A stretch of DNA of 64,000 nt from Bacteroidetes bacterium GWF2_40_14 (GTDB lineage: Bacteria > Bacteroidota > Bacteroidia > Bacteroidales > UBA932), in assembly GCA_001769195.1 (NCBI GenBank), contig MEOK01000038.1, positions 31,415 to 95,414 on the forward strand, given 5' to 3'. Both the position numbers and the translations under genes were made by a program. Positions 37,711 to 42,253 of this stretch are shown here, in pieces. Positions within the stretch are counted from its first letter, which is position 1. Each line of letters starts with the position of its first letter. The notes under the pieces were generated by a model. It saw only the letters and a program-made list of their open reading frames with translations, was not told where the DNA came from and did no database searches.

Positions 37711-39099
37711 ATGTTTGATTTAATTGTCATAGGATCGGGACCTGGCGGTTATGTAGCTGCTATAAGGGCATCACAACTGGGTATGAATACTGCAGTTGTG
37801 GAGAGAGCAGAAATAGGTGGGATTTGTCTGAACTGGGGTTGTATACCAACCAAGGCTCTTTTAAAAAGTGTTCAGGCTCTTCATTATGCTCAGCATTCTG
37901 CAGATTATGGTTTTACAATTGAGGGTGAGATTAAGCCCGATATTGCTAAAATAGTCGAAAGGAGCAGGGGAGTAGCATCAAATATGAGCAAGGGTATTGA
38001 TTACCTTTTCAAAAAAAATAAAGTGACCGTTATTAAAGGTACCGCAAGATTAATTGGAAATGGGCAGGTAGAAGTGAAGAGTGATGATTTGTCTGTATCT
38101 GTAATAGGAGCAAAGAATATTATTATTGCAACAGGAGCAAGAGCTAATTCCTTGCCGTTTGCTCCAATTGATGGAAAAAAAATAATATCATACAGGCAGG
38201 CCCTCGTCCCTGAAACTCTTCCTAAGAGCATGGCTGTCATTGGATCAGGTGCTATTGGCAGTGAGTTTGCTTACTTTTACCGCTCATTAGGAGTTGATGT
38301 TCATCTGATTGAATATCTGGATAATGTTGTTCCACTGGAAGACGAAGAAGTGTCGGCACAATTAAGCCGCTCATTCAGAAAAATAGGAATGAAGGTAATG
38401 GTCTCTGCACAGGTAAAGAGTGTTGATACATCCGGTGAGTTATGCAAGCTTACTGTTCAGACCAAAAAAGGTGAAGATGTCATTGAAGTTGAAAGGGTTC
38501 TTTCTGCTGTAGGTGTTATTGCCAATCTGGAGAATATCGGATTGGAGGAACTGGAGATTGTGGTTGAAAGGGGAAAAATCAAGGTAGATGAGTTTTACTC
38601 AACAAACATTTCAGGTGTTTATGCAATTGGAGATGTTATTGCAACCCCTGCACTTGCACACATCTCCTCTGCAGAGGCAATCTGTTGTGTGGAAAAAATT
38701 GCAGGGCTTGATCCTAAACCGCTTAATTATAATAATTTTCCCGGGTGTACCTACACATCGCCTGAGATTGCTTCTGTCGGCATGACTGAAAAGACAGTAA
38801 AAGAGAGCGGGATTGAATACAAAATTGGAAAATTCCCATTTACGGCATCTGGTAAGGCAGCAGCAGCAGGTGAGAAGGATGGTTTTGTAAAACTGATAGT
38901 TGATGCAAAGACAGATGAGATACTGGGAGCGCATCTGATTGGGGCAAACGTAACGGAAATGATTTCAGGGTTGGTTGTTGCGCGAAATCTGGGAGTTAAA
39001 GCGAAAGATATAATTCGGTCAATTCACCCTCATCCAACAATGAGTGAGGCAATTATGGAAGCGGCTGCAGCAGCACACGGAGAAGTAATTCATATTTAA
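37711..39099 (+). CDS. lpdA: Dihydrolipoyl dehydrogenase
   Basis: A 462-residue flavoprotein. FAD fold start LIVIGSGPGGYVAA, redox-active disulfide in GGICLNWGCIPTKALL, NAD fold SMAVIGSGAIGSEFAYF, GDV in VYAIGDVIATPALAH and the C-terminal His-Glu pair in IHPHPTMSEAIME. It reoxidises lipoyl groups of 2-oxoacid dehydrogenase or glycine cleavage complexes. No E1 or E2 genes are adjacent. It lies between secA and bactofilin with short gaps, perhaps one transcript ending at the 39505 terminator. Confidence 0.94.
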   Translation: MFDLIVIGSGPGGYVAAIRASQLGMNTAVVERAEIGGICLNWGCIPTKALLKSVQALHYAQHSADYGFTIEGEIKPDIAKIVERSRGVASNMSKGIDYLFKKNKVTVIKGTARLIGNGQVEVKSDDLSVSVIGAKNIIIATGARANSLPFAPIDGKKIISYRQALVPETLPKSMAVIGSGAIGSEFAYFYRSLGVDVHLIEYLDNVVPLEDEEVSAQLSRSFRKIGMKVMVSAQVKSVDTSGELCKLTVQTKKGEDVIEVERVLSAVGVIANLENIGLEELEIVVERGKIKVDEFYSTNISGVYAIGDVIATPALAHISSAEAICCVEKIAGLDPKPLNYNNFPGCTYTSPEIASVGMTEKTVKESGIEYKIGKFPFTASGKAAAAGEKDGFVKLIVDAKTDEILGAHLIGANVTEMISGLVVARNLGVKAKDIIRSIHPHPTMSEAIMEAAAAAHGEVIHI

Positions 39100-39109
39100 A
39101 AATAAAGAT

Positions 39110-39490
39110 ATGTCTAAACATGAAATTGTAGCTCAAGTAAACGAAGTCAACAGGATTTCAAACGGAACAGATTTCCAGGGGACACTTATATCACAATGTG
39201 ACATTAGAATTGACGGAACTTTTGAAGGAAAATTAACTACAACCGGAAAATTGGTTTTAGGAGAGTCTGCAAGATTATATGGCGATGTAGTTTGCAGAAG
39301 TTGTGATATTTGGGGGGTAATGGAAGGCAAACTTTTAGTCAAGGAGGTTTTCGGCCTAAAGAAGAGCGGCTCTATAACAGGAAACGTTGGCTGCCAGAAA
39401 ATATTCATAGAAGAGGGGGGAGTCTTTAATGGATCCTGTAAAATGATTAATGATTCAAGTTTTGAGGATTTGAAACTTAAGCTATCATGA
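39110..39490 (+). CDS. Bactofilin (polymer-forming cytoskeletal protein)
   Basis: A 126-residue protein whose central part is a right-handed beta-helix with the bactofilin rhythm: NGTDFQGTLISQCDIRIDGTFEGKL, then LVLGESARLYGDVVCRSCDIWGVMEGKL, then GSITGNVGCQKIFIEEGGVFNGSC. Short flexible ends flank it. Bactofilins polymerise without nucleotides into membrane-associated filaments. It is convergent with an actin-like gene that lies just behind the shared terminator, so two cytoskeleton-type genes meet here. Confidence 0.9.
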   Translation: MSKHEIVAQVNEVNRISNGTDFQGTLISQCDIRIDGTFEGKLTTTGKLVLGESARLYGDVVCRSCDIWGVMEGKLLVKEVFGLKKSGSITGNVGCQKIFIEEGGVFNGSCKMINDSSFEDLKLKLS

Positions 39491-39504
39491 GGTTATAATC
39501 ATAT

Positions 39505-39559
39505 CCAGATATAAAAAGGGCTGTATCAAAATAGAAGATACAGCCCTTTTTATATCTGG
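39505..39559. terminator. Bidirectional terminator between bactofilin and actin-like genes
   Basis: Perfect 23-bp inverted repeat with a 9-base loop (arms 39505-39527 and 39537-39559, GC core AAAGGGCTGTATC/GATACAGCCCTTT). Runs of A and T on either side of the GC core make it work in both directions, ending both convergent transcripts. Confidence 0.9.
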
Positions 39560-39566
39560 ATTGATG

Positions 39567-40649
39567 TTATAGCAATATAGAAACGCAAGTTGTGGCATTC
39601 CCGATATCTATACCTATATACTGAGTTGTACTATCTTCCGGAACATAAGACAATGCGTCTTTGTCTGCTATTTCGGTGCCACTGACAAGTTTGGAATTAA
39701 TAGCATATCCTATTGATGCGCATTTTTCAGGAGAGGGAACCGATGTAATTGGACAGAATTCCCCGAACTCTTCAGTAAACAAATTAACCAGGTCCTGATG
39801 ATATGCTCCACCTCCAACAAGAACTATTTTTGAGCAAATTTCAAAGTCTTCGTCAGACATGTATCGTTTAATTGCCGGAGAGATTACATTCGAATAATAA
39901 AGTTGCAAAGATCTTCTTTTTTCTTCTCCGAAATCTTTTCGTTTCCTGTCTATATAAACAAAACCTTTAGTGAAAATCTGGTCTACCTGGTGGTCGGTTT
40001 TAAGCCTTAGATATGCATTCTTGTTTAACTCCTGGGTAAAAAGGTCAACGGCATAACTCATTCCATGTGTGCTAAATGTAGATTTACTCAGAAGGCCTTC
40101 GGGTTTGCTTACTGCTCCTTCGCATGTTCCATACCCTAAACTTATTATTATGAAATTTCCGTCAATTGGATTTTCTCCCTTTCTCAATGCTATATCACAA
40201 CCGGCAAGTTCAGGCAGGATACTTACTTTGCAGGCAGGAATTAATTTCTGTTCGGTAATGGTATTCCCGTTTTCTTCTGCTTTGTAGTATGTTATTACCT
40301 TTTCTGATTTGTAATACTCTTCGGCCTCCTCCTTGTTGGATTGGAAAGTAGCAAATGGAAAACCTGTAGTAATTGACAAATTCGGCAATTTTACGAATTT
40401 GGAATTACTCATGCAGGAATTGCTTGCGAGCAGAATTGCAGATTGGCTGATAATTCTGTAATCTGCATCTGAAGGAGATGCATTGATAGCCTTGTGAGGT
40501 GAAACTCCCTCAAAAAGTGCTTGCAAACCAACTATATAATCTACACCATCAAGTTTTATTTTGGAAAAGCCCAAAATAGGATCATTACTTGTATAGTACT
40601 CCCGGATTGTTGCTTCGTATACACTCGGGAATGAAAATGTTTTAACCAT
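39567..40649 (-). CDS. ParM-like actin ATPase with phosphate-1 motif at the C-terminus (apparent circular permutation)
   Basis: The protein has 360 residues. It opens directly with FSFPSVYEA, DYIVGLQALFEG and SPSDADYRIISQSAILLA, which in ParM/Alp proteins come after the phosphate-1 hairpin. Phosphate-2 follows (IIISLGYGTCEG, 166-177), then the adenosine motif (KIVLVGGGAYHQDL, 274-287) and connect-2 (EKCASIGYAINSKL). After a linker, the last 17 residues read a typical phosphate-1 motif, YIGIDIGNATTCVS (Asp348), right before the stop. Normal order would put this at the N-terminus. The fold and ATP site could still close if the ends are adjacent. It may form filaments; plasmid segregation is not implied on a chromosome. 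It could be co-transcribed with the GT2 gene 51 bp upstream. Confidence 0.82.
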   Translation of the reverse strand: MVKTFSFPSVYEATIREYYTSNDPILGFSKIKLDGVDYIVGLQALFEGVSPHKAINASPSDADYRIISQSAILLASNSCMSNSKFVKLPNLSITTGFPFATFQSNKEEAEEYYKSEKVITYYKAEENGNTITEQKLIPACKVSILPELAGCDIALRKGENPIDGNFIIISLGYGTCEGAVSKPEGLLSKSTFSTHGMSYAVDLFTQELNKNAYLRLKTDHQVDQIFTKGFVYIDRKRKDFGEEKRRSLQLYYSNVISPAIKRYMSDEDFEICSKIVLVGGGAYHQDLVNLFTEEFGEFCPITSVPSPEKCASIGYAINSKLVSGTEIADKDALSYVPEDSTTQYIGIDIGNATTCVSILL

Positions 40650-40700: not shown

Positions 40701-41654
40701 TTATAACGTTGACTTAATCTTGTAAATATTTCTTTCACTGCTGTTTCTTGAGATTAATTCGCCAATAAAACCGGCCAGAAAAAGTTGCATTCCAATAATT
40801 AAAGCCACCAGCGAAATATAGAATAGAGGTTGATCAGTAACAGCCCTGTAGGCAAGACCTTGCGATTGAGTGACTACCTTGTTTATAATAAGATACAGTG
40901 AAATCATGGCTCCAATGAAAAATGTCAGGCTGCCAATAAGCCCAAAGAAATGCATTGGTTTCTTGCCAAATCTTGTCAGGAACCAAAGTGATAGGAGATC
41001 AAGAAATCCGTTAACAAAACGACTCATCCCGAATTTGCTTTTACCAAACATTCTGGGCTGATGCTTTACAACCTTCTCTCCGATTCTTGTGAAACCGGCA
41101 TTTTTGGCTAAATATGGAATGTATCTGTGCATCTCACCATAAACCTCAATGTTTTTCACAACCTCATTCCTGTATGCCTTTAACCCGCAGTTCATGTCGT
41201 GTAGCTTAATGCCGGTTACTCTTCTTGCAGTGGCATTGTAAATCTTTGATGGTATGTTTTTTGCGAAAATATTGTCTTTCCTCTTTTTCTTCCATCCGGA
41301 GACGAGGTCGTATTTACCTGATCTGATCATCTCTATCAAAGCAGGTATCTCTTCCGGACTATCCTGTAAATCAGCATCCATAGTAACAATGATCTCACCA
41401 CGTGCCGCCTCAAACCCACAGAAGAGTGCTGCAGATTTTCCGTAATTTCGAATAAACCTAATACCCCTGATAATTTCGGGATACATTTCATGAAGAGATT
41501 GTACCACGCTCCATGATGAATCTGTGCTGCCATCATCTATTAAAATAACCTCATATTCAAGATGACTATCATTAAGGGCGCGGTTAATCCAGGAAAGTAA
41601 ATCCGGAAGCGACTCCTCTTCGTTATAGAGTGAAATTACAATTGAAAGATCCAT
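40701..41654 (-). CDS. GT2 glycosyltransferase, DPM1/ArnC-like, membrane-bound
   Basis: A 317-residue protein with a GT-A domain: SIVISLYNEEESLPDLL, ILIDDGSTDSSW, GKSAALFCGFEAARG, and the metal motif MDADLQDSPEEIP. Two C-terminal membrane helices (about 232-258 and 274-297) follow. This layout is that of polyprenyl-phosphate sugar transferases (ArnC, GtrB and relatives), which put a sugar on undecaprenyl phosphate at the inner membrane. The sugar is not predictable. The DUF4199 gene is 25 bp upstream; this pairing is common in Bacteroidota. Confidence 0.92.
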   Translation of the reverse strand: MDLSIVISLYNEEESLPDLLSWINRALNDSHLEYEVILIDDGSTDSSWSVVQSLHEMYPEIIRGIRFIRNYGKSAALFCGFEAARGEIIVTMDADLQDSPEEIPALIEMIRSGKYDLVSGWKKKRKDNIFAKNIPSKIYNATARRVTGIKLHDMNCGLKAYRNEVVKNIEVYGEMHRYIPYLAKNAGFTRIGEKVVKHQPRMFGKSKFGMSRFVNGFLDLLSLWFLTRFGKKPMHFFGLIGSLTFFIGAMISLYLIINKVVTQSQGLAYRAVTDQPLFYISLVALIIGMQLFLAGFIGELISRNSSERNIYKIKSTL

Positions 41655-41679: not shown

Positions 41680-42180
41680 CTATTCTGTAAAAATATCACC
41701 TTTCTTTGTGTAGTTAGCAATAATAGATGAGACTATTATGCCAAATATGGTATAATAAAAAAGTGAAAAGACAGATATTATTTGTGGAAGTTTGCCTCCT
41801 ATTTTATCAAGCACAGCCATTCCATCTGGATTACTTGACTGTATTGCTGATGATATCTGTTCAAGTTGGGCAGCCATACTGTCAGGGAAAATAACAGCAT
41901 AGTGAAGAAACATGTAGCAGGCACAAATAAGTGATGACAACAGGCTTATCATGAAACCAAAACGGAACCCGTCCTTGTATGTAAATAAATCCTGATCCTT
42001 AGCATAATCTTTGATGAAATAGTACAACAATCCCAGGCTACTTATGAGCTTCACCAGCCAAAGCAGCCATATAATTGCTGTTCCGGGAGATAAAACAGTC
42101 TGGATAAGAGTAACCGTAATTGTTACAAGAGCAAGCAACAGACCGTCAAGTGCAGCAACACTCCATTTATTAGTTTGCAT
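41680..42180 (-). CDS. DUF4199 membrane protein
   Basis: The protein has 166 residues from ATG 42180 (MQTNKWSVAALDG). The longer frame to 42225 is excluded because a consensus promoter (42223-42253, minus strand) overlaps it. Four membrane helices (about 10-30, 36-58, 72-96 and 137-160) with the FTYKDGFRFGF loop mark the DUF4199 family, found across Bacteroidota directly before a GT2 transferase. The function is unknown; it may assist the glycosyltransferase in the membrane. Confidence 0.85.
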   Translation of the reverse strand: MQTNKWSVAALDGLLLALVTITVTLIQTVLSPGTAIIWLLWLVKLISSLGLLYYFIKDYAKDQDLFTYKDGFRFGFMISLLSSLICACYMFLHYAVIFPDSMAAQLEQISSAIQSSNPDGMAVLDKIGGKLPQIISVFSLFYYTIFGIIVSSIIANYTKKGDIFTE

Positions 42181-42222
42181 AATAATTTGATTTATAGGTT
42201 TATCGAAATAATTTAAGTTCAT

Positions 42223-42253
42223 CAAATTTAACTAAAAATGAATACTAACCAAA
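42223..42253 (-). promoter_or_regulatory. Consensus promoter of DUF4199-GT2 operon
   Basis: Minus strand: -33 TTTG (42250-42253), 19-bp spacer, -7 TAAATTTG (42223-42230). It is an exact match to the Bacteroides consensus. It decides the DUF4199 start at 42180. Confidence 0.75.

Follow-up and report, generated by a model that had tools for sequence, protein, structure and literature searches.

A putatively circularly permuted ParM-type actin-like protein and its recurrent bactofilin neighbour in Bacteroidota

To our knowledge, the order of the polypeptide chain is identical in actin and all of its described relatives. Normally, proteins with the actin/ASKHA fold carry the phosphate-1 motif first, followed by the phosphate-2 and adenosine motifs. 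This order is not kept in the protein described here, which is encoded on the minus strand (positions 39567..40649) of a 64,000-nucleotide stretch of DNA from Bacteroidetes bacterium GWF2_40_14 (contig MEOK01000038.1), hereafter the window, and in which phosphate-1 comes last. An earlier note on this DNA had read this as a circular permutation of an actin-like ATPase, and we refer to the protein and its relatives as cpALP, for circularly permuted actin-like protein.

The closest described proteins are the partition actins of plasmids and phages, of the ParM/Alp type (PF17989, PHROG 691, and PDB entry 6ixw). The body of cpALP can be aligned with them almost from end to end, and its later motifs keep their usual sequence. 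Contrary to them, cpALP has its phosphate-1 at the C-terminus, lacks the Asp of phosphate-2, and has bactofilin rather than ParR as its recurrent neighbour. The chromosome-encoded ParMs (cParM) resemble cpALP in being ParM-type proteins on a chromosome, but they have characteristic ParM structures and mostly ParR-like partners, and neither permutation nor bactofilin is described in the accessible text of that report (PMC12270681). The ParM-derived FcmB of filamentous cyanobacteria, which controls cell shape, is likewise a chromosomal actin of the ParM lineage, and a shape role for cpALP would be by analogy with it; however, FcmB is described as having a ParM-like domain of the usual kind and, as its partner, a protein annotated as ParR, with no permutation or bactofilin described in the available part of the source (PMC12645912). 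Its profile matched two of nine cpALP members, weakly. MreB shares the actin fold and a weak match with the region of the cpALP adenosine motif (MreB-like_C, sub-threshold, residues 186-283), but differs in motif order and was present as a separate full-length protein in all 28 genomes checked. Bactofilin, for its part, works together with an M23 peptidase in morphogenesis, according to the accessible text (PMC10945521), and a gene cluster containing cpALP resembles these modules, as detailed below. A module of this kind that includes an actin-like protein was not found described in the accessible open-licence literature; neither was any circularly permuted actin-like protein or actin-bactofilin link, an absence that is no proof. 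Where permutation is mentioned there, the subject is kinase folds in a general way, the ends of phage genomes, fluorescent proteins, assays of DNA bending, or NlpC/P60 enzymes.

The open reading frame (ORF) of the window cpALP encodes 360 residues from an ATG start and matches both Pfam ALP_N and PHROG 691. Its motifs stand where the earlier note had placed them. The new N-terminus brings FPSV at residues 7-10 (40620..40631, minus strand, as are all the following parts of the gene), which corresponds to the stretch located directly after phosphate-1 in ParM, position 4 of the family profile being aligned with residue 26 of 6ixw. It is followed by VGLQALFEG (residues 40-48), Pro146-Glu147 (40209..40214), where the Glu aligns with that of the Hsp70 NEPTAAA motif, the phosphate-2 motif IISLGYGTCE (40119..40148), with Ser170 in the place of the usual Asp, the adenosine motif VLVGGGA (residues 276-282, 39804..39824), and a connect-2-like segment recognised by alignment, PEKCASIGYAINSK (residues 307-320, 39690..39731), with GYA at 314-316. 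A linker of variable length and sequence among the homologues (39621..39689) leads to the phosphate-1 hairpin YIGIDIGNATTCVSIL (39573..39620), assigned by motif, alignment and profile tests. The C-terminal residues YIGIDIGNATTCVSILL thus contain the phosphate-1 motif, in the form G-x-D-x-G-N-[AS]-x-T, and its core YIGIDIGNATTCVS spans residues 344-357, three residues ahead of the stop. Since a single codon separates the ATG from an in-frame stop, there is no space for an N-terminal copy of this motif.

In its native order, the protein matches ALP_N (PF17989) over residues 3-129, aligned with profile positions 17-131 (E 2.8e-7). The score of 31.3 bits is over the curated cut-off of 26.3, which is also passed by four unaltered homologues (31.6-40.7 bits), and profile positions 1-16, the N-terminal strand pair of phosphate-1, find no match at the native N-terminus. 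When the real tail was moved to the front, the score rose to 41.2 bits (+9.9) and the match began at profile position 1, whereas two shuffled-tail controls gave 32.6 and 33.8 bits. Three homologues gained in the same way, namely L031 (40.7 to 48.1 bits, +7.4), L050 (39.7 to 48.4, +8.7), and L032 (34.1 to 42.6, +8.5). The same held for PHROG 691, annotated as 'partition protein': in native order, residues 4-296 of the window cpALP match profile positions 25-300 (74.5 bits, E 1.7e-20), and with the tail first the match extends to 3-300 (87.9 bits), whereas one copy with a shuffled tail gave 74.0 bits over 23-300. L032 went from 67.1 to 73.6 bits and L031 from 74.0 to 80.7, and over nine members 7 matched in native order and 8 in moved order. 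No NCBIfam model matched the window protein over its cut-off, the best match of the nine members being one to PRTRC_D (5e-5); MreB_Mbl (PF06723) was not among the matches of the window cpALP, and the unaltered L031 and L032 reached 13.3 and 12.7 bits, the cut-off being 27.

Comparison with known structures points in the same direction. The native profile of a 37-row alignment of the family matched the ParM of pCBH (6ixw; E 3e-8) with its positions 4-307 over chain residues 26-344. On the Hsp70 protein BiP (3iuc), it was aligned in permuted pieces, with profile positions 316-339, 99-180, and 247-310 on chain residues 22-45, 152-241, and 336-399, each piece being weak when taken singly (2.3, 10.2, and 6.8 bits, respectively). 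A nine-row profile in moved order gained the ParM 4xhp (E 9.5e-5), a match not present in native order up to E 1, including an ungapped stretch of 4.9 bits across the new joint (profile 6-36 on chain 14-44). Because the order is conserved across the family, because bringing the tail to the front restores the profiles, and because the native tail matches the N-terminus of Hsp70 and the body matches the rest, the supported reading, and the one that fits best, is that of a ParM-type actin with a true circular permutation, as the earlier note had proposed.

There are also results that weigh against this reading. L050 matched PHROG 691 in neither order; in the nine-row test against the PDB, many weak Hsp70 matches appeared in native order only and were lost in the moved one; and the AlphaFold2 models, built from 12 sequences (the window protein and those of 11 related loci) in two runs with different first rows, were of low confidence, with mean pLDDT values of 49.0 and 49.1 and nearly the whole tail below 50. 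Foldseek placed ParM and Ta0583 at the top and MreB high for the first of these models, with TM-scores of about 0.3-0.5 and an E of 6.7e-10 for 6ixw, a ranking that, coming from a poor model, is suggestive as weak support for a likeness to ParM. Among its matches was CorM of Anabaena (PDB 9rmi), which we guess may be related to FcmB. The unconfident placing of the tail in the fold models would fit the explanation that GIDIGNATT at the C-terminus is a chance resemblance, or a motif of another kind, in a ParM-like protein that merely lost its phosphate-1. We regard this as very improbable, given that the motif is invariant in 37/37 aligned proteins of 33-63% identity to the window protein, that the profile gain is obtained with the real tail only, and that, of 795 stop-to-stop frames (100 residues or longer) from the window and 20 related loci, none encoding another protein has the motif, all 21 occurrences belonging to cpALP.

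The family extends well beyond the window. A cpALP was found in 12 of 41 genomes (that of the window and 40 relatives), all 12 belonging to a single genus, represented in the search by 25 genomes; these proteins match the window protein over their full length with 55-64% identity. Counting the window's genome, searches over the class and the phylum recovered cpALP in 4/295 and 24/395 genomes, respectively (one of the 24 by a fragment only), and 31/244 genomes of the class that includes genome G461 have it. The whole-genome searches covered this phylum, and a single pattern-based scan of contigs reached beyond it, resulting in 11 loci, all from records labelled Bacteroidales, Bacteroidia or Bacteroidetes. 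The phosphate-1 motif is the last one in all of the 39 full-length proteins inspected, which come from nine families and are 33-64% identical to the window protein (12/12 from the genus, window included, 3/3 from the family f71, and 24/24 others). In the alignment of 37 of these proteins, which omits the near-duplicates L004 and L005, residues G346, D348, G350, N351, and T354 of the hairpin are invariant, together with E147 and G279-G281, and homologues with an N-terminal phosphate-1, which would speak for an ordinary order, number 0/37. Similarly, 31 of the 35 matches in the class of G461 span the family profile from position 2 or before to 336 or beyond, out of 341, tail included; of the four partial ones, which belong to G641, G711, and G783 (two matches), that of G711 and one from G783 keep the tail, and three of the four touch the first bases of their contig.

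No intermediate between canonical and permuted order appeared among the proteins inspected. When 198 genomes of the class were searched for PF17989, there was no match, yet the window's own genome was likewise missed, and the search therefore lacks the sensitivity to rule out relatives with the canonical order. An artefact of assembly or annotation, such as a frameshift, a wrong start or a chimaeric contig, might be suspected from the fact that the 11 relatives from the genus whose records carry a known title derive from metagenome-assembled genomes. This is hardly credible when the same order recurs in independent genomes of at least two classes, including the single-contig G431 and G607, and when a stop codon lies a short way upstream of the cpALP start. 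Judged from the sequences, a chromosomal family found in at least two classes of the phylum has the apparent permutation as a fixed trait. Such a family would mean that evolution tolerated a break of the chain within subdomain IA, right where the nucleotide-binding hairpin lies, and cpALP would be nature's own test of the chain connections that an actin requires in order to fold, to sense nucleotide, and to polymerise.

The regions of all three motifs (phosphate-1, phosphate-2 and adenosine) are conserved in the 37 aligned proteins, with phosphate-2 lacking its Asp. The replacement of this residue by Ser, noticed at first in the window protein, turned out to be family-wide: the catalytic Asp is present in 0/37, and in 34 the motif takes the form S-[LI]-G-[YF]-G-[TS]-x-E, the Ser being replaced by Gly in two and by Asn in one. 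In the profile-structure sequence alignments, the position of Ser170 faces the Asp of ParM and Hsp70. Mutation of this Asp in ParM (D170A) and a mutation in AlfA abolish filament dynamics and leave static filaments, according to the accessible text (PMC5539076). Since the phosphate-2 Asp is missing and these Asp mutants are static, slow hydrolysis and stable polymers are to be expected, and we infer that cpALP binds nucleotide with slow or no hydrolysis, forming stable rather than dynamically unstable filaments. The same loss in 37/37 would also suit a degenerate scaffold or sensor of the actin fold that does not polymerise, comparable to PilM or FtsA, and that would bind nucleotide statically and dock to bactofilin or the membrane, as would the variable C-terminal extensions, those of family f71 ending in a conserved KFLKTGMW-like motif. 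We consider this unlikely, although worth keeping in view: the phosphate-1 Asp, E147 and the GGG of the adenosine motif are invariant in 37/37, indicating that the cleft site is under selection, and the closest profile relatives are filament formers.

The second recurrent feature of cpALP is its gene neighbourhood. In the window, a bactofilin of 126 residues is encoded convergently at 39110..39490 on the plus strand (PF04519, E 9.6e-25, the sole PF04519 match of this genome), and a perfect inverted repeat of 25 nucleotides with a 9-nucleotide loop (39503..39561), likely a bidirectional terminator, lies between the two genes. The convergent arrangement claimed in the earlier note is borne out, with a shared terminator-like repeat. 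What that note had seen as two filament-type genes meeting at one locus can be broadened to a recurrent association. Outside the genus, 20 larger loci were analysed out of 25 phylum matches other than the window's own (omitting G370, G509, both of G505, and the G641 fragment), and in 14 of them a bactofilin gene lies downstream on the same strand, from abutting to about 1.2 kb away; in L056 the two genes overlap by one base. By genome, bactofilin is found within about 1.2 kb of cpALP in 16/26, usually co-directional and downstream (G000, G625, G361, G383, G395, G431, G440, G461, G465, G505, G509, G533, G556, G579, G607, and G650). With 1-4 PF04519 matches per genome, some being two pieces of one gene, we estimate that chance would produce this adjacency in a few per thousand loci, bearing in mind that the lineages share ancestry. 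All seven linked bactofilins outside the window that were subjected to a Pfam scan were verified (7/7). In three genomes of family f94 (L062, L070, and L072), the genes for an M23 peptidase, cpALP, a tetratricopeptide repeat (TPR) protein, bactofilin, and an AtpI-type protein form a cluster, its gene families having been scanned in L062, one of the three. A wall hydrolase is thus found together with two filament proteins and a gene of ATP synthase type.

As the cpALP gene is recurrently paired with bactofilin and, in f94, clustered with an M23 peptidase, an envelope role together with bactofilin suggests itself, and with moderate confidence we take an actin-bactofilin morphogenetic module to be the most likely role. 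According to this proposal, the phosphate-1 beta-hairpin would have been moved from the N-terminus to the C-terminus, where a short linker attaches it, as the order of the motifs suggests, and would fold so as to take up its original position in the nucleotide cleft. The missing Asp would make for nucleotide-dependent filaments with slow turnover, and the cpALP filament or scaffold and the bactofilin polymer would position envelope growth. On balance, we find it probable that cpALP is a naturally permuted ParM-type actin, likely a stable filament or scaffold cooperating with bactofilin in this process. The bolder version, in which the permuted actin is locked into stable filaments by the lost Asp and constitutes with bactofilin a two-polymer cytoskeleton for envelope growth in this phylum, with nucleotide gating in one polymer and not in the other, is tentative and in our view possible rather than probable. 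Given that the cpALP gene repeatedly adjoins a bactofilin gene, the pair suggests an undescribed two-filament cytoskeletal module, and the pairing predicts, testably, a partnership between an actin and bactofilin. The possibility that cpALP is a replacement for MreB was rejected, since MreB is kept in 28/28 genomes; cpALP would therefore add to it.

The pairing is not uniform, and several observations count against it as the key to function. Within the genus of the window, cpALP and bactofilin run towards each other rather than forming an operon, and all of the 24 other genomes of the genus have a bactofilin, with or without cpALP, which led us to reject within the genus the idea that the presence of one is tied to that of the other. 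No bactofilin lies beside cpALP in 10 of the 26 genomes (three of f71, three of f96, and four of genus g239); by locus, it is not near cpALP in 6 of the 20 outside the genus (L057-L061 and L075), nor in the three 4-kb loci of f71. The linked bactofilins do not form one clade either, a candidate rejected because they are scattered over the bactofilin tree (which holds one gene twice, as L108 and L072), some of them beside unlinked ones.

Bactofilins have been tied to chromosome segregation in some bacteria, and this would accommodate another explanation, in which cpALP is a chromosomal DNA-partition actin, permuted by happenstance, that moves or positions DNA as ParM does, with bactofilin as a scaffold or a mere neighbour. 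The closest canonical profile, PHROG 691, and the closest structures, the ParMs, are in its favour. However, the adjacent ORFs of at least 80 residues in the window encode a GT2 glycosyltransferase and the bactofilin, with no small ParR-like gene among them; the search of plasmids returned weak ParM/StbA matches covering less than 40% of the query, and those of phages and viral contigs returned no relatives of cpALP. The loss of the phosphate-2 Asp speaks against dynamic instability, and the neighbours in f94 are of envelope type. We thus judge a partition role to be decidedly unlikely.

The remaining neighbours in the window are the GT2 glycosyltransferase gene, upstream and co-directional (40701..41654, minus strand), a gene for a DUF4199 protein, also co-directional (41680..42225, minus strand), and, upstream of the bactofilin gene, one that we take, from general familiarity, to encode a dihydrolipoamide dehydrogenase-like protein (37711..39099, plus strand), all three conserved in the genus. 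The order DUF4199, GT2, cpALP, convergent bactofilin, lpd, and secA is found in 7/8 genus loci, the window included, L019 being different, and the convergent bactofilin lies some 70-105 bp from cpALP in 9/12, again with the window among them; of the exceptions, L019 and L020 have no bactofilin on the locus DNA examined, and L023 stops at the contig end. Hence, the GT2, DUF4199 and bactofilin neighbours pointed out by the earlier note do recur within the genus, whereas bactofilin as a constant neighbour does not hold for the 10 genomes mentioned above.

Of the 25 genomes of the genus, 13 have no cpALP, and in all of these GT2 adjoins bactofilin (13/13). On an lpd tree of 24 genomes (midpoint-rooted and with several weak forks), several groups that lack cpALP fall within others that carry it, which suggests repeated loss of cpALP in the genus. 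In L019 and L020 (genomes G013 and G022), cpALP is found at another locus, with G013 having a GT2-bactofilin site devoid of cpALP, an arrangement that suggests relocation or re-acquisition. Bactofilins from loci without cpALP (L085-L090 and L096-L098) are 47-52% identical to that of the window, those directly beside cpALP 62-73%, and further cpALP-less genomes of the genus keep 64-69%; it is possible that the constraint on bactofilin changed after the loss of its partner.

Some minor observations concern relatives outside the genus. G461 and G505 (L064, L071, L040, L054, L047, and L055) have two diverged copies of cpALP, and a separate bactofilin gene lies next to each copy, as though the two genes had been duplicated together. 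The homologues of f71 (L024:1216-2511, L025:1222-2514, and L026:1219-2514) continue for about 100 residues beyond phosphate-1, with a low-complexity look and a common ending R-[LI]-x-KFL-x-[TS]-G-x-W, and this extension is possibly a docking or membrane tail appended at the new C-terminus. In L057 and L058 (f96), where bactofilin is not nearby, cpALP is encoded between a pentapeptide-repeat protein of about 1239 residues and a sortilin-like protein of about 1178 residues, the latter bearing a secretion-type C-terminal domain in the scan of L057, the one locus scanned.
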